Shown: positions 6,760 to 22,656 of the stretch, one piece after another
Layout of the letters: every line of letters starts with the position of its first letter
How positions within the stretch are numbered: the stretch's first letter is position 1
Assembly (NCBI RefSeq): GCF_001269345.1
Contig: NZ_CXOP01000002.1
Location: 620,853-684,852, forward strand
Source: Limnohabitans sp. 2KL-27
GTDB lineage: Bacteria; Pseudomonadota; Gammaproteobacteria; Burkholderiales; Burkholderiaceae_C
Direction of reading: 5' to 3'
Length of the DNA stretch: 64,000 nt
Program-made: the position numbers and the translations under genes
The notes under the pieces: generated by a model
Database searches by the model: none
Told to the model about the DNA's origin: nothing
The model's input: the letters and a program-made list of their open reading frames with translations, nothing else

Positions 6760-7872
<1,113 letters not shown>

Positions 7873-13706: not shown

Positions 13707-14129
13707 ATGTTGGAGCGACTTGTATACCGCTCACAAGCCACCCACAAACTTGGTAGCCTGCATTTGTTCAATTTGCTGGTGCAGTGCCGCAAACGAAACC
13801 TGAGCCTGGGCATCACGGGGCATTTGCTCTACACCGAGGAAATCTTTGTTCAGTGCATCGAAGGCCCCTCTGGCTCGATCGATGCTTTGTGGAAAAGCCT
13901 CCAACGCGATGAGCGGCATCACGGTTTAGAACTGTTGGCGCGAGGCCCCATCACCCATCGGCAGTTTGCAGATTGGGCCATGGCCTTTTCGTCCTATGCG
14001 CACTACGATAAATACGACATTCCCGGTTTTTTCCCGGTGGATGCCCAAGGCATGTCCAGTGCGGCTGACCGATGCGGACAGTGGGCAACCGACCAATTTT
14101 CAGATGAAAAAGCCGAAACAACCATCTGA
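13707..14129 (+). CDS. Stand-alone BLUF-domain blue-light sensor
   Basis: A 140-residue protein that is almost entirely one BLUF (FAD-binding blue light) domain. The light-sensing residues are present: Tyr7 in RLVYRSQA, Asn31 in RKRNLSLGITG, Gln49 in FVQCIEG, plus the semi-conserved Trp90 and Met92 in WAMAF. Blue light rearranges hydrogen bonds around the flavin in this family. No output domain is fused, so it must act on a partner protein, and none is evident nearby. GGAG lies five bases before the ATG. The C-terminal 40 residues are unassigned. Confidence 0.9.
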   Translation: MLERLVYRSQATHKLGSLHLFNLLVQCRKRNLSLGITGHLLYTEEIFVQCIEGPSGSIDALWKSLQRDERHHGLELLARGPITHRQFADWAMAFSSYAHYDKYDIPGFFPVDAQGMSSAADRCGQWATDQFSDEKAETTI

Positions 14130-14178: not shown

Positions 14179-14190
14179 CGATAATTATCG
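14179..14190. promoter_or_regulatory. Palindrome at the start of the copper island
   Basis: CGATAATTATCG is a perfect 12-base palindrome ending two bases before the ATG of the first DUF2946 gene. It contains GATAAT, which could be a -10 element (implying a nearly leaderless transcript), and it resembles the core of Fur/Zur-type metal-regulator sites. No Shine-Dalgarno sequence is visible before the ATG. Which of these roles applies cannot be decided from sequence. Confidence 0.35.
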
Positions 14191-14192
14191 TT

Positions 14193-14558
14193 ATGTTCAA
14201 TCTGCAATCCCTGCGCAACGCCCACCGCCTCACCCGCCTCGTGCTGGTCTGGTTTGCGTTGTTTGTGGGGGTGGCCGTGGCTTCGCCGCTGGTCAACCCA
14301 GAGGGTGTGCAACTGGTGTGCACCACCGCGGGCAGCGTCAAGTTGCTCCAGCTCGATGCCGATGGTGAGGAAGCGCAAGGCAGCCACCACGGCTTGCACT
14401 GCCCCCTGTGTTTGCCGGTGGCCGCACCCCCGGTGGTCTCGGTTTCAGCGCCAGTCTATGTCGGGCTGTCTCATGCGCTGCGTCCTATAGAGCAGGGCCG
14501 GCTGGCTTCGCTCATCGGCCTGCCTTGGCAGGCCCGCGCTCCACCCACTTTTTCTTGA
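14193..14558 (+). CDS. DUF2946 membrane protein, copy 1
   Basis: A 121-residue protein with one hydrophobic segment (about 15-32) followed by a Cys43 motif (QLVCTTAG) and an HCPLC motif (His69, Cys70, Cys73). This Cys/His pattern recurs in the other two DUF2946 proteins of the island (15191-15589 and 18906-19277). DUF2946 genes are repeatedly found beside copper genes; a metal-binding or copper-transfer role is inferred, not demonstrated. It opens the copper island and is followed by a PCu(A)C chaperone gene. The start lacks a clear ribosome binding site, so a GTG at codon 17 or leaderless translation is possible. Confidence 0.75.
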   Translation: MFNLQSLRNAHRLTRLVLVWFALFVGVAVASPLVNPEGVQLVCTTAGSVKLLQLDADGEEAQGSHHGLHCPLCLPVAAPPVVSVSAPVYVGLSHALRPIEQGRLASLIGLPWQARAPPTFS

Positions 14559-14690
14559 TCACGGCAGCTGTTTGACGGCCAAGTGCGGCGTGCCCGCATG
14601 AGCCGCCCGCACTGTCCGCGATCCGATGGGCTGTCGTTCAAGCGGCGCCATACCCTTTCCCCTTGTGTCTTTTTTAAACTGGAGTTCGCC

Positions 14691-15164
14691 ATGAAACGCG
14701 TTGTTGTCTCTTTTGCCGTCCTGATGTCGGCCTTGTTCAGCCAGGCCCAAGCCCAAGTCACTGTCAAAGACGCCTGGGTGCGTGCCACCGTGGCGCAGCA
14801 AAAAGCCACAGGTGCTTTCATGCAACTGCAGTCCAGCCAAGACGCCAAGTTGATCTCGGCCCAGTCGCCGGTGGCGGGTGTGGTGGAGGTGCACGAAATG
14901 GCCATGGATGGCGGCGTCATGAAAATGCGTGCCGTGCCCAGCCTGGCCTTGCCTGCCGGCAAAGCGGTGGACCTCAAGCCTGGCGGTTACCACGTCATGC
15001 TGATGGACCTGAAGGGCCAGGTCAAAGACGGTGACACCGTGCCCGTGACCCTGGTGGTTGAAGGCAAAGACGGCAAGCGCCAGAACATCGAAATCAAGGC
15101 CTCTGCACGCATGGCCGCCGCACCCGCCATGAAGCAGGGCGACGGCCACATGCACAAGCATTGA
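14691..15164 (+). CDS. PCu(A)C periplasmic copper chaperone, copy 1
   Basis: A 157-residue protein with a signal peptide (about 1-21, ending AQA) and a PCu(A)C domain. The canonical Cu(I) motif H-x10-M-x21-H-x-M is exact: His68, Met79, His101, Met103. Such proteins carry copper in the periplasm, for example to the CuA site of cytochrome oxidase. The C-terminal tail is His/Met-rich (GDGHMHKH) and may bind more metal. The ATG at 14691 has GGAG upstream; the longer frame start at 14583 lacks a signal peptide. It is flanked by two DUF2946 genes. Confidence 0.92.
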   Translation: MKRVVVSFAVLMSALFSQAQAQVTVKDAWVRATVAQQKATGAFMQLQSSQDAKLISAQSPVAGVVEVHEMAMDGGVMKMRAVPSLALPAGKAVDLKPGGYHVMLMDLKGQVKDGDTVPVTLVVEGKDGKRQNIEIKASARMAAAPAMKQGDGHMHKH

Positions 15165-15190
15165 TTCCTTGACTTTTTTCTGATCCATCC

Positions 15191-15589
15191 ATGACCTGGA
15201 CTTCAGCCCAACTGCGCAGGCTCAGCCTGTGGCTGCTGTGCGCGATGCTGCTGGCGGCTTTGGCCCCCACGGTCTCGCGTGCGCGGGCCTGGAGCCAGGG
15301 CAGCGCCGTGCCTTGGATGGTGGTGTGCACCAGTGACGGCAGACTACAGACAGTATTCAACCAGCAGGGCAATACACAGAGCGACGAAGGTTCTGTGCCA
15401 GACGCGTCCATGCTCGACCATTGCGCCTTGTGCGTGTTGGCCAGCGACCGCATGGCGCCGCCGCCCAACCCTGTGTCGTGGCAGGCAATGCCACAAGCGC
15501 CGCCCTTGTTGGCGCAATTGGATCCACGCATTCCTCAAGCAGTCCTGCACTGGACGGTCCACTCCCGCGCCCCACCTGTCCACGCCTGA
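15191..15589 (+). CDS. DUF2946 membrane protein, copy 2
   Basis: A 132-residue protein with an N-terminal hydrophobic segment (about 11-27), then VVCTSDG (Cys46) and DHCALC (His77, Cys78, Cys81), the same pattern as copies 1 and 3. It starts 26 bases after the first PCu(A)C gene and is probably co-transcribed. A periplasm-facing, metal-related role is inferred from motif and neighbours. It is the most divergent of the three copies. Confidence 0.75.
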   Translation: MTWTSAQLRRLSLWLLCAMLLAALAPTVSRARAWSQGSAVPWMVVCTSDGRLQTVFNQQGNTQSDEGSVPDASMLDHCALCVLASDRMAPPPNPVSWQAMPQAPPLLAQLDPRIPQAVLHWTVHSRAPPVHA

Positions 15590-15684
15590 TTTCAGCCGTG
15601 GCAGGCCGGGCACATGCCCGACTGCTGTTTGCCAGATGTCCGCTTCTCATCGCGGGCACTGGCCAATTCAGTGCGGAGCATCGT

Positions 15685-16272
15685 GTGAAATTTTTGAATC
15701 CAATCCCAGTGGGTGAGCCCATCGAAGTTAAGCGCGGTCAATGCTTGTTGACCGCAGGTGGCGTAGGCCCAGTATGGCGGGTGACTGAGGGTGTCTTTAA
15801 ATTAGAGCGCCAAGGCCAAGACGGTCCAATTCTGGTGCAGCTGGCCCAAGCCGGTGACCTGATCGGCGTGGAGGCCTTGTGTGCCGAGCCTTATGCCTTC
15901 ACGTCCGTGGCCTTGGTGAATGCCCAAGCGGTACCCCACCCGGTGAGCCAAGATCTGGACCGCTACACCACCATGACGCAGGGCTTCATGCAGCAGCAAC
16001 GCCAAACCTGCGACATGCACCGTTTGCGCACCGGCCCCATCGTGCAGCGCCTGGCCTATTTGTTGACGGTGTTGGGCAAGCAGGCCGATGGCCGTGTGTT
16101 GACCGTGCAGCGCAAAGAACTGCCCACACTCAAGGAAATGGCCCGCGTGGTCGACTCCACCTTCGAGACGGTGTGCCGCGAACTCAACACTTTGCTGCCC
16201 GAACGCAAGCAGCCTCGCCTGCGCGTGCCCAGTGTGTGGGCGGTGGGCCAGCCCTTTGCCATGGTGGCCTGA
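15685..16272 (+). CDS. Crp/Fnr-family transcriptional regulator
   Basis: A protein of about 195 residues with a cyclic-nucleotide-binding-type sensor domain (about 10-110) and a C-terminal helix-turn-helix. The recognition helix ETVCRELNTL keeps the Glu and Arg that FNR-type proteins use to read TTGA half-sites, with Cys in place of the usual Ser. There is no N-terminal Cys cluster, so it is not an oxygen-sensing Fe-S FNR. The GTG at 15685 is chosen because GGAG precedes it by six bases and the domain begins there; the frame is open back to 15421 but overlaps the DUF2946 gene. Its position inside the copper island suggests local control. Confidence 0.72.
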   Translation: MKFLNPIPVGEPIEVKRGQCLLTAGGVGPVWRVTEGVFKLERQGQDGPILVQLAQAGDLIGVEALCAEPYAFTSVALVNAQAVPHPVSQDLDRYTTMTQGFMQQQRQTCDMHRLRTGPIVQRLAYLLTVLGKQADGRVLTVQRKELPTLKEMARVVDSTFETVCRELNTLLPERKQPRLRVPSVWAVGQPFAMVA

Positions 16273-16281
16273 AAGCAAGAC

Positions 16282-16827
16282 ATGCAACAGGTGATTTTTA
16301 AACGCTGGCAAAGCGCCCCAAAAACTGGCTTCGGCTTGAACTTTACGGCAGGCGGTTTGTTCCTGGGGCTGGTCGTCCTGGCGCTGTTGGGTATGGGCTC
16401 TGCGCACGCGCACGACTTTCGCCAAGGCGATGTGGTCATGGACCACCCCTACGCCACGCCCACCTTGGCAGGCACCACCACCGGCGCGGTGTATTTCAAG
16501 TCGATCCGCAACAAAGGCAAAACGCCTGACCGCCTGCTGTCGGCCCGCACCGCTGTGGCTGCGCGGGTCGAAATCCACCACATGCAGATGGACGGCAACG
16601 TCATGCGCATGCGCCAAGTGCCCACTTTGGAGTTGCCCGCGCAAACCGAAGTGTCCTTGCGGCACGGCGGCGCAGGCACGCACCACCTGATGCTGCTGGA
16701 CATGGCCAAACCCCTCAAAGACGGTGACCGCTTCGATCTGGAGCTGGTCTTTGAAAAAGCAGGCACCCGGCGTGTGAACGTCTGGGTGCAAACACCGCGA
16801 GCAGGTGCACCTGCGCACAAGCATTGA
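16282..16827 (+). CDS. PCu(A)C periplasmic copper chaperone, copy 2
   Basis: A 181-residue PCu(A)C protein with a long hydrophobic N-terminus (about 23-44, ending in an Ala-His-rich cleavage region). The copper ligands are His99, Met110, His135 and Met137. The Met-to-His spacing is three residues longer than in copy 1 because of a GGAGTH insert. It ends in HKH, like copy 1. It starts nine bases after the Crp/Fnr gene and 20 bases before MbnP, so it is probably in one operon with them. The ribosome binding site is weak. Confidence 0.88.
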   Translation: MQQVIFKRWQSAPKTGFGLNFTAGGLFLGLVVLALLGMGSAHAHDFRQGDVVMDHPYATPTLAGTTTGAVYFKSIRNKGKTPDRLLSARTAVAARVEIHHMQMDGNVMRMRQVPTLELPAQTEVSLRHGGAGTHHLMLLDMAKPLKDGDRFDLELVFEKAGTRRVNVWVQTPRAGAPAHKH

Positions 16828-16847
16828 TTTTTGAACTGGAGAACACG

Positions 16848-17732
16848 ATGAAAAATCTTTTCACCCTGACGGCATTGGCCTTGACCGTGAGCGCCTGCAG
16901 CACCCTGCCCAGCCCACCCACTTCCCAAGCAGTTGAGCTGAAGTTTGCCGCCCAAATCAACGGCCAGCCCTTTGCCTGCGGCCAGCGCTACGAAGGCGTG
17001 GGCAGCACGCGTTCGACCATCACGCCCAGCGACTTTCGCATGTACGTGAGCGAGGTCAAGCTGGTGCGCCAAGACGGCAGCACCGTACCCGTGCAACTTG
17101 CGCAAGACGGCGTGTGGCAACAGCAATCGGTGGCGCTGCTGGACTTTGAAAACGGCGCAGGCCCTTGCCGCAATGGCACTGAAGCCACCAACACCAGCGT
17201 GCGTGGTCAAGTGCCTGCGGGTGAGTACACCGGGGTGGAACTCACCGTGGGCGTGCCCTTTGCACAAAACCACCAAGACCCCACGGTCGCCCCCGCGCCG
17301 CTCAACTCCACAGCCATGTTCTGGAACTGGCAAGGCGGCTACAAGTTCATCAAGTTCGACACCGCCAGCAGCGGCATCAGCACAGACAAACCCGCAGCAG
17401 CCAACGCCATGGGCCCGGTCACGCGCTACTCGGTGCATCTGGGCAGCACGGCATGCGCGGGCGAGAGCAAAACCCAAGCCCCCAGCGCTTGCCAAAACCC
17501 CAACCGCATGACGGTGCGTTTCGATGGCTTTGACCTTCGCAAAAACACCGTGGTGGCCGACATGGGCGCGGTGCTGGCACAGGCCAATGTGGACGTCAAC
17601 GCCAAAGGCACATCGCCCGGCTGCATGAGCTTCCCCAAAGACGGCGACTGCTCACCTGTGATGCAGGCGCTGGGCCTGGCCTATGACGGCGTGGCCGCTG
17701 CAGGCCCTCAACGACTTTTGTCCAAGCGCTGA
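16848..17732 (+). CDS. mbnP: MbnP-family copper-binding lipoprotein (four-Cys motif protein)
   Basis: A 294-residue protein with a lipoprotein signal (VSAC, Cys17) and the MbnP (metallo-mystery pair) layout, including Cys44, Cys107 and two later Cys pairs, and a Trp-rich segment WNWQGGYKFIKF (Trp159, Trp161). In the characterised pair from a methanotroph, the di-heme partner MbnH oxidises a Trp of MbnP to kynurenine, which then helps bind Cu(I). That chemistry is known for the family and only inferred here. Start at the ATG 16848 with GGAG upstream. The mbnH homologue follows after 21 bases. Confidence 0.87.
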   Translation: MKNLFTLTALALTVSACSTLPSPPTSQAVELKFAAQINGQPFACGQRYEGVGSTRSTITPSDFRMYVSEVKLVRQDGSTVPVQLAQDGVWQQQSVALLDFENGAGPCRNGTEATNTSVRGQVPAGEYTGVELTVGVPFAQNHQDPTVAPAPLNSTAMFWNWQGGYKFIKFDTASSGISTDKPAAANAMGPVTRYSVHLGSTACAGESKTQAPSACQNPNRMTVRFDGFDLRKNTVVADMGAVLAQANVDVNAKGTSPGCMSFPKDGDCSPVMQALGLAYDGVAAAGPQRLLSKR

Positions 17733-17753
17733 TCTGCACCCCAGAGCTCGGCC

Positions 17754-18902
17754 ATGAACCCTTTGCGCAAAACCCTGAGCACCTGCCTGCTGGCCTTGGC
17801 CGGCTGGGCTGTGCTCACGGGCAGCTCCACAGACGTTTTTCATTGGGACTTGCCTGCCTGGGTGCCACGCCCTGTGGTGCCCGCAGACAATCCGATGAGT
17901 GCGGCCAAGGTCGAGCTGGGGCGGCACCTGTTTTACGACCAACGCCTGTCGGCTGACAACAGCATGTCGTGCGCCACCTGCCACCACCAGGACAAAGCCT
18001 TCACCGATGGTCTGGCCGTGGCCAAAGGCGTGACCGGGCAAGCGGGTCAACGCAGTGCCATGGCGCTGGCCAATGTGGCCTATCTGCCTGTGCTGACTTG
18101 GGCCAACCCCAACCTCACGGCTTTGGAGGTGCAGGCGCTCATTCCGCTGTTTGGCGAGCACCCGGTCGAGATGGGCATGGCAGGACGAGAGAAAGAACTG
18201 TTTGAACGCCTGCAAGCCGATGCGCGTTACCGCGACTTGTTTGCCAAAGCCTTTCCGGTCGAAGCCGCAAAAGGCAGCGAAGCTTTGTATTCGCTGGGCA
18301 CACTGACCAAAGCCTTGGCCAGTTTTCAGCGCAGCCTGCTCTCGTTTGACAGCCCGTATGACCGCTACAAATACGGCGGCCAGCCCACGGCCATATCCCC
18401 AGCGGCCAAGCGCGGAGAAAGCCTGTTCTTTGGCGAAAAGATGGAGTGCTACCACTGCCACGGCAGCTTCACCTTCACCGACAACATCCGCCACAGCAAG
18501 CTGCCATTGGCTGAGCGCGGCTTTCACAACACAGGCTTGCACAACCTGGATGGCCGGGGTGCTTACCCCGCAGACAACCCGGGCATCAGCGAGTTCACGG
18601 GCGACGCCGATGACATGGGTAAGTTCCGCACGCCCAGCCTGCGCAACATTGCGCTGACCGCGCCCTACATGCACGACGGCTCCATCGCCACGCTCGACCA
18701 AGTCATCCGTGCCCACTACGCGCAGGCTGGCCGCGCAGGTGGTACGACCAACGGGCCCAGCCCCTTGCGCAGTTCATTGATCGGGGGCTTCGAGGTCAGC
18801 GAGCAAGAAGTCAGCGACCTGGTCGCTTTCTTGAACACCTTGACCGACCACACCTTTGTTCACAACCCTCGCCACGCCAATCCCTGGCCTGCCAGTCGCT
18901 GA
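17754..18902 (+). CDS. mbnH: MbnH-family di-heme c-type enzyme
   Basis: A 382-residue periplasmic di-heme protein of the bacterial cytochrome c peroxidase/MauG superfamily. Heme-binding CxxCH motifs are at Cys73-Cys76-His77 (CATCH) and Cys232-Cys235-His236 (CYHCH). An N-terminal hydrophobic signal (about 7-22) is present. It is paired with MbnP directly upstream, the arrangement of the metallo-mystery pair, in which MbnH modifies a Trp of MbnP. Ordinary peroxidase activity is the alternative, but the MbnP neighbour favours MbnH. The downstream DUF2946 gene starts three bases after the stop. Confidence 0.88.
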   Translation: MNPLRKTLSTCLLALAGWAVLTGSSTDVFHWDLPAWVPRPVVPADNPMSAAKVELGRHLFYDQRLSADNSMSCATCHHQDKAFTDGLAVAKGVTGQAGQRSAMALANVAYLPVLTWANPNLTALEVQALIPLFGEHPVEMGMAGREKELFERLQADARYRDLFAKAFPVEAAKGSEALYSLGTLTKALASFQRSLLSFDSPYDRYKYGGQPTAISPAAKRGESLFFGEKMECYHCHGSFTFTDNIRHSKLPLAERGFHNTGLHNLDGRGAYPADNPGISEFTGDADDMGKFRTPSLRNIALTAPYMHDGSIATLDQVIRAHYAQAGRAGGTTNGPSPLRSSLIGGFEVSEQEVSDLVAFLNTLTDHTFVHNPRHANPWPASR

Positions 18903-18905
18903 GGC

Positions 18906-19277
18906 ATGGACATGCACCGTTCACACCCCTTCTTTCACTCGCTGAGCCGCCTCGTGTTGGTTTGGTATGTGCTGTTTGTGGGTGTGTCGGTTTTGGCCGC
19001 CACGCTGCAGCCAAAGACCATGGAGGTCGTGTGTTCCGCCATGGGCATCATGAAGGTGGTGGTGCAAGGCGAGGGTGAAGCCCCACCGCTGACCAGCAAC
19101 ATGGACTGCCCGCTGTGCGCCCACGCCACCCCCGCATTGCCACCGCCCACGGTGGCGGCTTTGGTCCATGTGCACGATGCACGCGCTTTCATCGTGCAGG
19201 CCTTGCCCGAGGCGCTGCTGTTGGCCCGCACTGCTCCGCCACTGCCTTCTCGCGGACCTCCGAACTCCTCTCTTTGA
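18906..19277 (+). CDS. DUF2946 membrane protein, copy 3
   Basis: A 123-residue protein very like copy 1: a Leu/Val-rich membrane segment (about 13-31) with the same LSRLVLVWYVLFVGV style, then EVVCSAMG (Cys43) and MDCPLC (Cys68, Cys71). It is coupled closely to mbnH. The two Cys motifs suggest metal binding on the periplasmic side. This is the last high-GC gene of the island before the AT-richer receptor module. Confidence 0.77.
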   Translation: MDMHRSHPFFHSLSRLVLVWYVLFVGVSVLAATLQPKTMEVVCSAMGIMKVVVQGEGEAPPLTSNMDCPLCAHATPALPPPTVAALVHVHDARAFIVQALPEALLLARTAPPLPSRGPPNSSL

Positions 19278-19321
19278 TCTCCAAGCGGGCATAGCGCATT
19301 AGCTGCTGCCCCTTTTTGGTT

Positions 19322-19349
19322 GGCGACCTGCTTCTTGCAGGAACTCGCC
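19322..19349 (+). promoter_or_regulatory. Bulged hairpin upstream of the small ORF and TonB receptor
   Basis: GGCGA (19322-19326) and CCTGC (19327-19331) pair with GCAGG (19337-19341) and TCGCC (19345-19349), giving a ten-pair stem with a TTCTT loop and a three-base bulge on one side. It lies 23 bases before the GTG of the 48-residue ORF. There is no U-tract, so a simple terminator is unlikely; a leader RNA structure controlling the downstream genes is possible. Confidence 0.35.
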
Positions 19350-19371
19350 TGCGATCTTTGAAGGAAAAACT

Positions 19372-19518
19372 GTGATTAATTATTTCTCTCCTCGCGGAGC
19401 AAAGCGCGGCATCGTTTTGGCTGGAGCTACGGCTTTGCTATGGGCCTGCTGGGCCATCGGCTACATACAAGGCTTTTCTGGGGGCAGTGCCCCTGAGGTC
19501 ATTTGGATATTGAATTAA
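19372..19518 (+). CDS. Small single-pass membrane protein (48 residues), unknown
   Basis: A GTG-started ORF with a strong ribosome binding site (AAGGA, six bases upstream). It encodes 48 residues: a basic start (MINYFSPRGAKRG), one clear membrane helix (about 14-34, with the Trp-rich LLWACWAIGY), and a short tail. It ends 15 bases before the TonB-receptor ATG, and the two are probably co-translated. I do not recognise the family. Possible roles are a membrane partner of receptor uptake or a leader peptide; both are guesses. The clear binding site and tight spacing make chance less likely. Confidence 0.6.
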   Translation: MINYFSPRGAKRGIVLAGATALLWACWAIGYIQGFSGGSAPEVIWILN

Positions 19519-19533
19519 TTTAGAAAGAATCAA

Positions 19534-21687
19534 ATGAAAAAACTTAACTTAACCCCAATTGCGGCTGTTACCGTAGGATTCTTATCGGTTGGTGCACATG
19601 CGCAGGCAACTAAAACAGATGCAACTTTGCCTGCGATCACGGTCACAGCTGATCGCGTTGATGGATATGTTGTGCCGACCTCGAGCACGGCAACCAAGAC
19701 GGACACCCCCATTGAGAACATCCCCCAGACGGTTGTCGTTGTGCCGAGGCAGGTGATTGAAGATCAGGGTGCAACAAAGCTCTCGGACGTCACCACCAAC
19801 GTCAGCAATGTCCAGCATTTCGACCAGCGGGACTTTTCAACCGTCACAAGTTTCAAGATTCGTGGTTTCAATGCGGCGGTGGTGGTGGACGGCGTGGCAA
19901 GCCCTGGCTACTTCAGCAACCTTGAGCCCGTCTACAACATGGAGCAGGTGGATGTGGTGAAGGGTCCGGGTGGTGCTCTTTATGCCACGTCACAATCCAC
20001 TGGTGCCGATAGTGTTGGCGGGATGATTGGCATCACTACCAAAGCACCTGGTCCAGATGCCATACGTCAAGTGGGTTTCAGGGTGGGGTCATACAACGAC
20101 AGGGCGTACTTCGCTGACCTGAATCAGCCCATCAATGAAACGTTGGGGGTGCGCCTCGTCGTTCAAAAGCAATCGGCAGACAGCGAGACTGATCGTGTCA
20201 GTTCTCAGCAAACCTTCATTGCCCCCAGTTTGGCTCTCAATATTGACCGCGATCGCAAGTTTGTGCTCCGACTCAAGCACGTTGAGAACGATTGGCATGA
20301 CTCGGTTGGTTTACCCACCCAGACTGCAGCCCGCAATGGAAACTTGACTGCAGAGGGCATTCCAAAGAGCACGATGAACGCTGACTCGATCAACGCGCAT
20401 TACACCCAGCGCTTGAATGACACTTGGAAGTTTGACTTTGTGGTTGCAGAAACGCGCGCCAAGTTTGATCAACGGGCGATGTTTTATCTATCACCAAATT
20501 CCGCTGCTCCAAATGCCGCACCGGGAGGCGAGGCCGCGCGGCTTTGGCAGGACATGAAGACAACGGTAATTTCACCAACGTTGACTTCAAAATTTGATAC
20601 GAGCTCGGCGAAACATACTCTGCTACTTGGGGCAGAGGAGGTCAAGACTCGCGATTATGGATTTGTTGCTATTGACCCATTTGGCGCACTCTTCTGCATG
20701 GGTGGCGTTGCGTGCACCTATTCCGTTTACTCTGCGCCGTATGCTGCATGGGTTGAGCCAACATCTCCAACCAACCCGTATAACAAAGTCTCAAGCACGA
20801 CACATGCTCTTTACGTCCAAGATCAAATCGAAATAGGTCGCTGGCATTTTCAAGCGGGGCTCAGGTATGCACGCATGAAGATCAGTGACTACTACGCCGG
20901 TTTTCCTACCGACCCTGCTGGACTCACTGCGGGTCACGACGACAAGGATACGTTCTCAAAATTGTTGCCGCGTGTAGGGGCTGTGTTTGACATCACTGAT
21001 AACGCTTCCATGTTTGCAGGTTACGGTGAGGGAATGAAGGTCCCTTTGGGGGGGCTTTACGACCCCAGTGCGAAGCGAAAACCTGAAGAATCAAACCAAA
21101 CAGAAATCGGTTTTCGGTTAAAAGATTGGTACGGTCTAACTGCAACCTTGGCATGGTTCGATCTTACGAGACGCAACGTCCCGACATCCGGCCCTGCCCC
21201 GAATTACTACATCTACCAAGTAGGCGAACAGAACTCAAAGGGCATTGACCTGAACTTGGCTTGGAAAGCAAGCAAAAGCCTGACGGTCCTTGCTGGCTTG
21301 AGCGACCAGAAAGCCATCACCGTAGAGAACCAATACAGCGCAGCAAGTGTTGGGAAGACTCTACAAAACGTGCCTGCCCAAACCGCCAGATTAGCCATGC
21401 GCTACGACATTCGTGAGGGGGAGCTTGCCGGTTTGGGTTTTGGACTCGGTTTGCGCCATCACTCAAAGTTGGCTGCCGATTCCAGCAACACCAACTTCAC
21501 GCCGGCAGTTACCGTTTATGACTCGCAAGTCTCCTACCGTATGAAGGGTGTGAGTTTGAATTTGGCAATCAATAACTTACTGGATAAAAAGTATGTGGTT
21601 CCAAGCAGTCAATCATCGAGTGCTGGGCCCCTGTACTTTCCAGCACTACGTCGGACAGCAATGCTGACTGCCACAATGGACTTTTAA
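19534..21687 (+). CDS. TonB-dependent outer-membrane receptor, siderophore type
   Basis: A 717-residue receptor with signal peptide (about 1-23, ending AHAQA), a TonB-box-like stretch LPAITVTADR (about 32-41), a plug domain (about 60-170, with VDVVKGPGGALY), and a long beta-barrel ending in the terminal Phe needed for outer-membrane assembly. The architecture matches FhuA/FpvA-type ferric-siderophore receptors, but the ligand cannot be read from sequence. Its base composition is clearly more AT-rich than its neighbours, pointing to horizontal acquisition. Context (copper proteins upstream, isonitrile-hydratase-like enzyme directly downstream) suggests a metal-chelate import module. Confidence 0.9.
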   Translation: MKKLNLTPIAAVTVGFLSVGAHAQATKTDATLPAITVTADRVDGYVVPTSSTATKTDTPIENIPQTVVVVPRQVIEDQGATKLSDVTTNVSNVQHFDQRDFSTVTSFKIRGFNAAVVVDGVASPGYFSNLEPVYNMEQVDVVKGPGGALYATSQSTGADSVGGMIGITTKAPGPDAIRQVGFRVGSYNDRAYFADLNQPINETLGVRLVVQKQSADSETDRVSSQQTFIAPSLALNIDRDRKFVLRLKHVENDWHDSVGLPTQTAARNGNLTAEGIPKSTMNADSINAHYTQRLNDTWKFDFVVAETRAKFDQRAMFYLSPNSAAPNAAPGGEAARLWQDMKTTVISPTLTSKFDTSSAKHTLLLGAEEVKTRDYGFVAIDPFGALFCMGGVACTYSVYSAPYAAWVEPTSPTNPYNKVSSTTHALYVQDQIEIGRWHFQAGLRYARMKISDYYAGFPTDPAGLTAGHDDKDTFSKLLPRVGAVFDITDNASMFAGYGEGMKVPLGGLYDPSAKRKPEESNQTEIGFRLKDWYGLTATLAWFDLTRRNVPTSGPAPNYYIYQVGEQNSKGIDLNLAWKASKSLTVLAGLSDQKAITVENQYSAASVGKTLQNVPAQTARLAMRYDIREGELAGLGFGLGLRHHSKLAADSSNTNFTPAVTVYDSQVSYRMKGVSLNLAINNLLDKKYVVPSSQSSSAGPLYFPALRRTAMLTATMDF

Positions 21688-21695
21688 GGACGACC

Positions 21696-22541
21696 ATGGA
21701 CCGACGAACATTTAATCTTGTAGCGCTGTTGGCTGGCATGTTTCGCGTGACATCAGCAGCAAAGGCAAGCAGTAGCGGCGAACATGATCATGCAACTGGA
21801 TTCTTCATGCAGAAGTATCCCGACCTTGTAGGTGGGGATGAGGTCACCATCGGCATGGTCGTTTATCCGGGCATGTTCTTATTAGATCTCGTCGGTCCAC
21901 TCGCGGTATTTGAGTCTTTGCTGAATCGCAAAATTCACTTGCTTTGGAAGGACACCCAGCCCGTTGGCGGGACATCAGGCGCCAGCACCGTGCTCATACC
22001 TGTTACGCCAACCATGACATTCGCAGACTGCCCTAAGGCTCTGGACCTTTTGTTTGTTCCAGGTGGCGTTAATGGAACCCTCCAAATGATGGAAGACCCG
22101 GTTGTACTGCAGTTCCTGGCAGATCAAGCGCCAAGATCGAAGTACGTAGCGAGTGTGTGCACTGGATCGTTGATTTTGGGAGCTGCCGGGTTATTGAAAG
22201 GCTACCGAGCAACTTCCCATTGGATGACGATCGATGCATTGAGAGAACTGGGGGCAACGCCTGTTAAGAAGCGTGTCGTTGTTGACCGCAATCGGATCAC
22301 GGGTGGTGGCGTCACTGCGGGCATGGATTTTGGTTTGGCGCTGGTTGCACTGCTGCGAAACCGTACCTACGCAGAAGCGGTACAACTCTATCTTGAGTAC
22401 GACCCGAAGCCTCCGTTCAATGCAGGTTCCCCAGATACCGCCCCCAAACGGGTCAAGGAGTTTCTGGATGACATGCTTGGGCAGGTCAGTTCAACTTCAA
22501 TTGATGCAGCAAAACGAGCGAGGGGTAAGTGGAAGGATTAG
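21696..22541 (+). CDS. DJ-1/PfpI-family isonitrile-hydratase-like protein with Tat-like signal
   Basis: A 281-residue DJ-1/PfpI protein. From about residue 50 it follows isocyanide (isonitrile) hydratase closely as I recall that enzyme: catalytic Cys155 in VCTGSLILGAAG, Thr156, Asp64 in LLDLVGP, and the family-typical LEYDPKPPFNAGSPDTAP near the end. The enzyme hydrates isonitriles to N-formamides. Unlike the cytoplasmic enzyme, it has an N-terminal extension beginning MDRRTFNLVALLAG, which resembles a twin-arginine signal, so export to the periplasm is plausible. It is eight bases after the receptor, with AAGGA before its ATG, and shares its AT-richer composition. Other DJ-1 activities cannot be excluded. 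Confidence 0.82.
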   Translation: MDRRTFNLVALLAGMFRVTSAAKASSSGEHDHATGFFMQKYPDLVGGDEVTIGMVVYPGMFLLDLVGPLAVFESLLNRKIHLLWKDTQPVGGTSGASTVLIPVTPTMTFADCPKALDLLFVPGGVNGTLQMMEDPVVLQFLADQAPRSKYVASVCTGSLILGAAGLLKGYRATSHWMTIDALRELGATPVKKRVVVDRNRITGGGVTAGMDFGLALVALLRNRTYAEAVQLYLEYDPKPPFNAGSPDTAPKRVKEFLDDMLGQVSSTSIDAAKRARGKWKD

Positions 22542-22656
22542 TTTGAGCCTTCGATACCGCCAAAAAAGAGGGTAAAGCATCAGGGTGGAAGGCTGGTTAG
22601 CTGGAACTGAAAGCGTCTTCAGGTAAGCTTTGCAGACCACTTTCCAAGGAACTGCC

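Follow-up and report, generated by a model that had tools for sequence, protein, structure and literature searches.

An exported DJ-1/PfpI protein behind a TonB-dependent receptor in a CruR-type copper island of Limnohabitans sp. 2KL-27: a conserved and apparently undescribed pairing

What does an exported relative of isocyanide hydratase do directly behind a TonB-dependent receptor (TBDT) in a run of copper genes? The question is raised by a 64,000-nucleotide stretch of the genome of Limnohabitans sp. 2KL-27 (assembly GCF_001269345.1, contig NZ_CXOP01000002.1, positions 620,853 to 684,852 of the forward strand; here, the window), in which 11 open reading frames (ORFs) follow one another on the + strand between positions 14193 and 22541, as seen in its ORF list. 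A reading made without database searches (hereafter the sequence-only reading) had taken this run for a composite copper-acquisition island whose last two genes, for a TBDT and a DJ-1/PfpI protein, might serve to import a copper-isonitrile chelate and to destroy its ligand. As far as our searches show, a receptor operon controlled by CruR leaders is the known part of this island, and the pairing of receptor and DJ-1 protein within it is the new part; this pairing is real, widely conserved and apparently undescribed.

The window receptor was found at E<=1e-100 in 5 of 299 genomes of the family, its own included, and in 5/5 a DJ-1 gene lies directly behind it. With the DJ-1 protein as query, the family scan gave 35 places in 31 of the 299 genomes at E<=1e-30 (own included), of which 12 encode exported proteins (11 with a Tat N-terminus and 1 lipoprotein) and 23 non-exported ones. 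Export was called by our own N-terminus rule, that is, an RR motif or, for L161, a lipobox (L plus a number labels a compared locus from another genome or contig, and L004 the own genome); a lipobox match in L152 was set aside by eye, and L075, whose RR N-terminus contains an acidic residue, fails the rule and is counted as non-exported. A TBDT gene lies at most 1.5 kb upstream of 11/12 exported members (in L044 with a PepSY_TM gene between) and of 0/23 non-exported ones. Genes for CruR, PCuAC, MbnP or MbnH stand within 6 kb on the same strand of 12/12 exported and 2/23 non-exported members. The receptor association extends beyond the family: TBDT genes were upstream of 3/4 exported and 0/14 non-exported members in a scan of the order (300 genomes, 18 places besides the own), and of 6/6 and 0/20 members, respectively, among 26 named GTDB loci. 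A scan of the class (369 genomes) gave 2 matches besides the own, one non-exported and the other with internal stops and not in the counts. When the samples (family, order, class and GTDB) are pooled, with the extra genus genomes left out and kinship among genomes ignored, a TBDT gene is upstream of 20/22 exported members (window included) as against 0/58 non-exported ones, and copper markers are nearby in 16/22 (window included) as against 2/58. The neighbor profiles were built partly from the same loci, and an MbnH-like gene on the opposite strand in L051 was not counted as a copper neighbor. Thus, the co-occurrence of receptor, DJ-1 and copper genes across genomes, for which the sequence-only reading had proposed a search, is borne out.

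Which enzyme is it that accompanies the receptor? Among solved chains the window protein is closest to 3ewn, which is named no more specifically than ThiJ/PfpI family protein (E 6e-73), followed by the isocyanide hydratase (ICH) 3non (E 1.6e-60), and in the protein search many among the best 120 of 8000 scored candidates carry the source name cyclohexyl-isocyanide hydratase. Asp64, Cys155 and Thr156 of the window protein align with Asp17, Cys101 and Thr102 of ICH; the isonitrile-hydratase residues that had been proposed for it are therefore present. The nucleophile of ICH is Cys101, and Asp17 is postulated to act as a general acid (PMC10971408; papers are cited by PMC number, here and below, for the available parts of their text). 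An alignment of 85 of 90 relatives (5 partial or contig-end sequences left out) with the two solved chains, in which Asp17 was counted at column 23, showed that Asp17, Cys101 and Thr102 are kept in 31/31, 31/31 and 30/31 exported rows and in 53/54, 54/54 and 47/54 non-exported rows. Because the residues are kept in exported and non-exported proteins alike, they are characteristic of the branch as a whole rather than of the exported group. In a first tree of the DJ-1 proteins export requires 4 gains or losses, and 29/31 exported rows fall together, with L142 and L161 apart; the L161 protein forms a long branch whose position is unsure. When six plasmid-borne relatives were included and three long branches removed, a second tree placed 32 exported rows and 3ewn in one clade (99/93 support), apart from 3non. 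In this core exported clade, a TBDT gene is upstream in 31/32 rows (9 of which are close congeners of each other, and one of which, L044, has PepSY_TM between); the rows come from Alpha-, Beta- and Gammaproteobacteria and Verrucomicrobiota.

The window receptor scores 281 bits against the siderophore-type family TIGR01783 (cut-off 223.5). Of the solved chains, those nearest to it bear the names FoxA or CntO (best chain E 3.4e-43), and most of the near chains are iron-siderophore receptors; the CrtA chain 9rvq gave E 8.9e-20, with a best stretch of residues 466-710 only. TIGR01783 is also the best family for 17/17 DJ-1-partnered receptors tested, 13 of them over the cut-off, and a chelate is therefore expected as their cargo. 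In a tree of 43 receptors from the loci (50 less 7 congeneric rows), one clade of 18 consists entirely of DJ-1-partnered receptors, from the own genus and family, Sphingomonadales, Nevskiaceae and Verrucomicrobiota. A second clade of 5 has an exported DJ-1 protein behind 4, one being the distant lipoprotein of L161; the fifth (L055) has a cytosolic DJ-1 protein only, in front. Three partnered receptors (L044, L060 and L128) lie outside both clades, and CruR-led receptors without a DJ-1 gene were placed in other clades, L055 excepted. The DJ-1 and TBDT trees together show that TBDTs of several families have become partners of DJ-1 proteins of more than one lineage. Among the Tat members of the family scan, identity to the window is 23-45% for receptors and 44-66% for enzymes, so that the enzyme is the more constant partner; a constant enzyme with varied receptors would fit a set of different chelates that have one reactive group in common. 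When the DJ-1 clade is taken without L110 and L061 (16 receptors), the His, Cys, Met or Trp columns conserved at >=85% are one His (361) and one Trp, and the His is also found in 5/5 receptors of the second clade and in 4/7 others. An OprC-like metal site was considered and rejected: no Cys or Met column reaches 85% in the 16 receptors, and no sign of such a site was seen.

The locus itself is laid out as follows; the eleven adjacent genes, their families and their span are as the sequence-only reading had them, according to the ORF list, Pfam and NCBIfam.

14193..14558, + strand: cruR1, a DUF2946 protein and putative CruR-type copper attenuator, CPLC at 70-73 and RAPP at 115-118 (Pfam E 7.2e-8)
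14691..15164, + strand: pcuC1, an exported copper chaperone of the PCu(A)C family (Pfam E 4.5e-39)
15191..15589, + strand: cruR2, a second putative DUF2946/CruR leader, CALC at 78-81 and RAPP at 126-129 (Pfam E 2e-14), 26 bp after pcuC1
15685..16272, + strand: a Crp/Fnr-like regulator (weak label), GTG start proposed, with sub-threshold NCBIfam and Pfam matches
16282..16827, + strand: pcuC2, a second PCu(A)C chaperone (Pfam E 7.7e-32)
16848..17732, + strand: mbnP, an MbnP family copper-binding protein (Pfam E 4.8e-47; MbnP_like_WxW, TIGR04052, 300 bits, cut-off 140)
17754..18902, + strand: mbnH, an MbnH family di-heme enzyme (CCP_MauG, Pfam E 1.7e-47; TIGR04039, 464 bits, cut-off 363)
18906..19277, + strand: cruR3, a third putative DUF2946/CruR leader, CPLC at 68-71 and RGPP at 116-119 (Pfam E 1.2e-7), 3 bp after mbnH and at the head of the receptor cassette
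19262..22607, + strand: a probable exchanged cassette (end of cruR3, orf48, TBDT and DJ-1 genes), delimited by blastn against 13 loci and by GC content
19372..19518, + strand: orf48, a small hydrophobic ORF with a GTG start, doubtful as a gene
19534..21687, + strand: the TonB-dependent receptor, siderophore subfamily TIGR01783 (TonB barrel, Pfam E 9e-54, and Plug)
21696..22541, + strand: the DJ-1/PfpI protein of the isocyanide-hydratase branch, predicted to be exported by a Tat-type N-terminus, MDRRTFNL, with Asp64, Cys155 and Thr156 (DJ-1_PfpI, Pfam E 2.6e-26)

Much of this order recurs in congeners, and the arrangement is thus not due to chance. Two of the labels stand less firmly than the others. 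The regulator matches Crp/Fnr profiles below threshold only (NCBIfam E 3e-4; HTH_Crp_2 E 0.015), but an ortholog occupies the same position in congeners, and a Crp/Fnr gene is also present in a comparable Allorhizobium operon. The 48-residue membrane ORF exists as a hydrophobic reading frame, but among the compared loci it recurs in 1 other genome only (L127/L128), from whose copy it differs at codon positions 1 or 2 in 4/6 nucleotide differences; it is doubtful as a real gene. Upstream of the operon lies a gene for a BLUF blue-light sensor (13707-14129), a similar gene being upstream in L111, and downstream lies a gene for a FIST protein. The own genome (2.97 Mb, 2 contigs) has four DUF2946 places and two COX1 genes; in it, the window receptor is the sole TIGR01783 match over the cut-off and the window DJ-1 protein the sole PF01965 match. 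The fourth DUF2946 gene (L004, C2:2353448-2355946, - strand) is just upstream of another TonB receptor.

How might such an operon be controlled? For the DUF2946 protein Bp2923, encoded by an upstream ORF that responds to copper, the sensor is a CXXC and the element that stalls the ribosome a C-terminal RAPP; once stalling is relieved, Rho ends transcription before the receptor gene (PMC9426467). According to the same source, CruR operons include genes for TBDT, PepSY_TM, PCuAC, Sco and MbnPH-like proteins, and the CruR genes are overwhelmingly first in their operons. All three window DUF2946 proteins have a CXXC in their mature part (CPLC, CALC and CPLC) and end in RAPP, RAPP and RGPP, respectively, 3-4 residues from the terminus, RGPP being usual at the cruR3 position in congeners. 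The distance from the last Cys to the Arg is 42, 45 and 45 positions; the coordinates published for Bp2923 give 46 (PMC9426467). In the compared loci, CXXC is present in 57/57 CruR profile matches, 3 of which are repeat pieces of the same genomes, and R[AG]PP followed by a few residues at the end in 56/57, L060 having AAPP. The DUF2946 proteins therefore look like CruR-type attenuators and not like structural parts, which makes the island as such, that is, the copper context, one of a known kind, a point that the sequence-only reading had missed. Gaps of 132, 95 and 256 bp follow cruR1, cruR2 and cruR3, and cruR2 and cruR3 themselves begin 26 and 3 bp after other genes; they therefore look internal, and the window appears to hold one operon with three CruR attenuators in series, unlike the mostly-first pattern of PMC9426467. 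The same order with internal leaders is present in several congeners. By excess of C over G (78 bases), the tails of cruR2 and cruR3 are in the top 0.5% of the window and the cruR1 tail is unremarkable. Ahead of the receptor, verrucomicrobial loci encode small proteins that contain CPLC or CALC and, close to their end, a proline-rich PPPR segment (L064:6242-6529 and 7180-7587, and L067:5355-5684); the three gave no Pfam match and are possible CruR analogues. A 'hypothetical protein' of Allorhizobium (L162:1069-1464) has CEAC and a near-C-terminal RGPP and was missed by NCBIfam and by the CruR profile.

Within the genus, the pair appears to have been exchanged as a unit. Among 90 genomes of the genus MbnH was found in 18 and DJ-1 in 12, and the slot behind mbnH was examined in 14 of the other 17 MbnH genomes. 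The slot holds a TBDT and a DJ-1 gene in 7/14, one with a stop in the DJ-1 gene; in an eighth the contig ends within the slot, and DJ-1 lies on a different contig. In 5/14 the slot has some other TBDT and no DJ-1 gene, and in 1/14 it has neither. In L108:9690-10574, from a congener, a stop codon lies inside the DJ-1 gene, behind a long open receptor gene. By blastn, the window is up to 93% identical to congeners until base 19261 or 19266 in 11/13 loci, and the match resumes at 22608-22656 in 10/13. Inside 19262..22607, the only matches to congeners are the DJ-1 core (66-68% in 6 loci) and, in L128, the first 300 bases; the CruR-receptor junction of that congener is 94% identical to bases 19229-19571. 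GC content is 0.50-0.53 in the cassette, as compared with 0.60-0.65 both in the remaining genes of the operon and in the three that follow it; the BLUF gene before the operon is also low in GC (0.53). Flanks that match around a low-GC middle that does not thus indicate a replacement cassette: the pair of the window looks like a low-GC replacement from elsewhere behind cruR3, unlike the pair that 8/14 congeners have in the same slot.

Other loci show the company that the exported protein keeps. As further signs of copper, outside the marker counts given above, NF033672, named copper uptake system-associated protein, is present in L041, L045, L110, L128 and L161, SCO in L044, L047 and L064, PepSY_TM in L044 and DUF1775 in L046. 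A plasmid survey gave 230 plasmids with a DJ-1 match, 8 of which were examined among the matches listed. On pAtS4e of Allorhizobium ampelinum the order is a CruR-like leader (CEAC, RGPP), Crp/Fnr, a siderophore-type ABC importer, a PCuAC/NF033672 fusion, SCO and a Tat DJ-1 protein. Methanotroph plasmids (L163-L165, two from one Methylosinus strain and one from Methylocystis) have a TBDT and a Tat DJ-1 gene beside a divergent two-component system; one of these pairs is near pqqA and mxa genes. Plasmids of Pantoea and Acuticoccus encode a short non-exported DJ-1 protein without receptor or copper neighbors. In many loci with non-exported relatives a second DJ-1-domain gene is adjoining, annotated as a GlxA family regulator in L169. 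In two genomes of the family, a CruR-TBDT unit is directly preceded by two genes, one for a cytosolic protein like isocyanide hydratase and a longer one with a DJ-1 domain (L047:5750-7456 and L055:9507-11228); L055 and L047b share neighboring genes on the DJ-1 side, and this link may therefore be positional. In the own genome the isonitrile synthase PF05141 had no match, and neither had 14 control genomes, so that absence is not established; the same holds for NF033672, with no match in the own genome and controls equally silent. Because the isonitrile-forming ScoE is a TauD relative, we examined a TauD-family gene that follows DJ-1 in a congener (L042); its best solved match is taurine dioxygenase (E 2.8e-72), ScoE giving only E 2.8e-16. 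A TauD-like gene is also present in L111 without DJ-1, and we rejected the gene as an isonitrile synthase on both grounds.

Among known systems, CruR-CrtA-CrpH of Bordetella pertussis (PMC9426467, PMC12914433, PMC13038864) shares with the window the CruR leader upstream of a TonB receptor and the logic of copper acquisition, as well as, in some operons, PCuAC and SCO. It differs in that CrtA belongs to another TBDT family, as judged by chain scores (the FoxA- and CntO-named chains score far above 9rvq), and in that PepSY_TM comes next in over 75% of CrtA loci (PMC12914433), whereas in the window DJ-1 comes next, 8 bp after the receptor. CrtA takes chelated copper, no high-affinity ligand having been found (PMC12914433). 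The available main texts of these three papers make no mention of DJ-1, PfpI or isonitrile. MbnT-MbnP-MbnH of methanobactin producers is alike in having MbnP and MbnH beside a TonB receptor, and the MbnP/MbnH pair reaches far beyond methanobactin producers (PMC3621798); in the window, however, a DJ-1 gene follows the receptor. With ICH/InhA (3non) the window enzyme has in common the DJ-1/PfpI branch and Asp17, Cys101 and Thr102, but the exported members form a separate clade, have Tat N-termini and mostly follow TBDTs. Diisonitrile chalkophores bind copper (PMC9600254). Their likeness to the proposed system lies in isonitriles as copper carriers and in a hydratase that acts on isonitriles; their producers are actinobacteria. 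An isonitrile hydratase acting on diisonitriles was reportedly described in Streptomyces thioluteus by Zhu in 2018. We know of no TonB receptor or CruR that goes with the actinobacterial diisonitrile chalkophores.

The pair may have been seen before without being remarked upon. In Caulobacter, CC1775 (DUF2946), CC1776, CC1777 (sodA), CC1778 (TBDT), CC1780 (ThiJ/PfpI) and CC1782 fall together, to 0.23-0.50 in array data, in a zur mutant with zinc; the authors assign other remaining genes, not this cluster, to the Fur regulon, and the available text has the pair genes in one co-regulated cluster and no comment on their pairing (PMC4176598). The available main text of a study of the iron response (PMC3751524) names neither CC1775-CC1778 nor CC1780. 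This co-regulation gives the pair indirect support, CC1780 being known here as ThiJ/PfpI by description only. In the open-licence literature searched, no paper describes a system that unites DJ-1/PfpI or isonitrile hydratase with either a TonB receptor or CruR; two papers that mention both topics treat them separately (PMC10792529, PMC12879404). The suggestion of an undescribed copper uptake route thus stands for the receptor-enzyme pairing, which we did not find described, but not for the CruR copper island around it.

What, then, may the pair do? From the gene order, motifs, co-occurrence, clade structure and cassette exchange that we observed, we infer copper control, export, ligand chemistry and cooperation, and we lean towards a scheme in which a copper chelate is imported under CruR control and its ligand is then altered in the periplasm by the exported DJ-1 protein, with release of the copper. 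When copper is scarce, ribosomes would stall at the R[AG]PP ends of the leaders and transcription would continue; copper bound to the CXXC of a nascent leader would relieve the stalling, and Rho would stop transcription before the module behind that leader. This mechanism, published for one CruR, is extended here to the window by analogy. The last module, behind cruR3, would comprise the siderophore-type receptor and the Tat-exported DJ-1/PfpI enzyme. The receptor would bring a copper chelate, and not free copper, into the periplasm, where the Cys/Asp pair of the enzyme would modify the ligand irreversibly, causing the copper to fall off; PCu(A)C and MbnP would take the freed copper towards cuproenzymes, for example the heme-copper oxidases of the own genome. 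The putative ligand-modifying enzyme would stand where the PepSY_TM protein stands in the published CruR-CrtA operon. Copper import under starvation is suggested by CruR together with PCu(A)C and MbnP, a chelate by the siderophore type of the receptors and the precedent of CrtA, and ligand chemistry in the periplasm by the exported Cys-Asp enzyme that directly follows the receptor. That the enzyme is of the isocyanide-hydratase branch and that diisonitriles bind copper makes an isonitrile made by other microbes the leading single guess for the substrate, although a tentative one; other ligand groups open to attack by the DJ-1 Cys may be the substrate instead. In its fullest form, which seems to us possible but somewhat doubtful, the proposal is one of Gram-negative piracy of isonitrile chalkophores: the CruR-controlled receptor would import the chelate, the Tat-exported hydratase would turn the isonitriles into formamides, the copper would pass to PCu(A)C and MbnP, and such a pair would have arisen repeatedly, different receptor families having been combined with DJ-1 proteins of more than one lineage.

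Several observations weigh against this proposal. The exported clade is separate from the clade of the characterized isocyanide hydratase 3non, and the three catalytic residues are common to the whole branch. The sequence-only reading had said that a pair found mostly away from copper genes would speak against it; the family scan gave the opposite, but a copper marker was near exported members in only 1/4 cases in the order sample and 3/6 in the GTDB sample, the non-exported members having none there (0/14 and 0/20). The methanotroph pairs of L163-L165 gave no CruR, PCuAC, MbnP or MbnH match. Exported DJ-1 proteins also occur without receptor or copper genes, in L142, in Thalassospira (L166) and in A. 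vitis T60/94 (L167), all outside the core exported clade, and L046, a member of that clade beside CruR and PCuAC, is without a receptor. The interpretation given in the sequence-only reading is partly supported: a copper-linked receptor-enzyme pair can be retained, an isonitrile substrate is plausible at most, and the enzyme lies in a clade apart from the characterized isocyanide hydratase.

Could the enzyme protect instead of feed? ICH has been described as likely defensive (PMC10971408, PMC10792529), and an exported enzyme of the right branch, in an operon of the copper-starvation kind, could destroy the isonitriles of competitors and so keep them from poisoning heme-copper oxidases or stripping copper; the receptor would admit them or merely share the regulon. 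A detoxifier, however, need not sit close behind a receptor, as 20/22 do, nor keep to particular receptor clades, and we regard this explanation as unlikely. Chaperone and deglycase roles are known among DJ-1 family members. It might thus be imagined that the Cys of the exported protein binds Cu(I) or repairs oxidized thiols, with no ligand chemistry at all, and its PCuAC and SCO neighbors would fit such a role. Yet Asp (31/31) and Thr (30/31) are kept along with the Cys, which a metal carrier would not obviously need, and the association is stronger with the receptor than with the chaperones; a role as copper or redox chaperone seems quite improbable.

The siderophore-type receptor subfamily, and the iron-siderophore receptors among most of the nearest solved chains, raise the question of whether an iron-siderophore receptor pair was simply captured beside copper genes. 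The best site resembling a Fur box (consensus from general knowledge) matches at 13/19 and lies at 14180, just before cruR1, but it is no better than the best found in shuffled sequence (11-13/19 in 20 shuffles); CruR leaders are directly upstream in many loci, and the Caulobacter cluster is not among the Fur-regulon assignments in the available text of PMC4176598. We therefore give a purely iron-related function very little credence. Finally, the link to copper could be one of position only, if the pair travels as a cassette and frequently inserts into copper islands. Cassette exchange did occur in the window, and the slot behind mbnH/cruR3 holds TBDTs without DJ-1 in 5/14 congeners; against this, more than one DJ-1 lineage has been joined to several TBDT families, and we consider mere position an extremely remote explanation. 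Import of a copper chelate followed by chemistry on its ligand is the explanation that we prefer.

Among CruR-controlled receptors, CrtA has yielded no natural ligand of high affinity (PMC12914433). A receptor that comes with its own ligand-modifying enzyme offers a direct handle on the natural ligands of such receptors, as the substrate of the enzyme would name the chelator. If that substrate is an isonitrile, Gram-negative bacteria would pirate isonitrile chalkophores and release the copper by destroying the ligand. In iron uptake, release by an esterase or a reductase is the counterpart of such a step. Part of the isocyanide-hydratase branch would then belong to metal nutrition rather than to defense.

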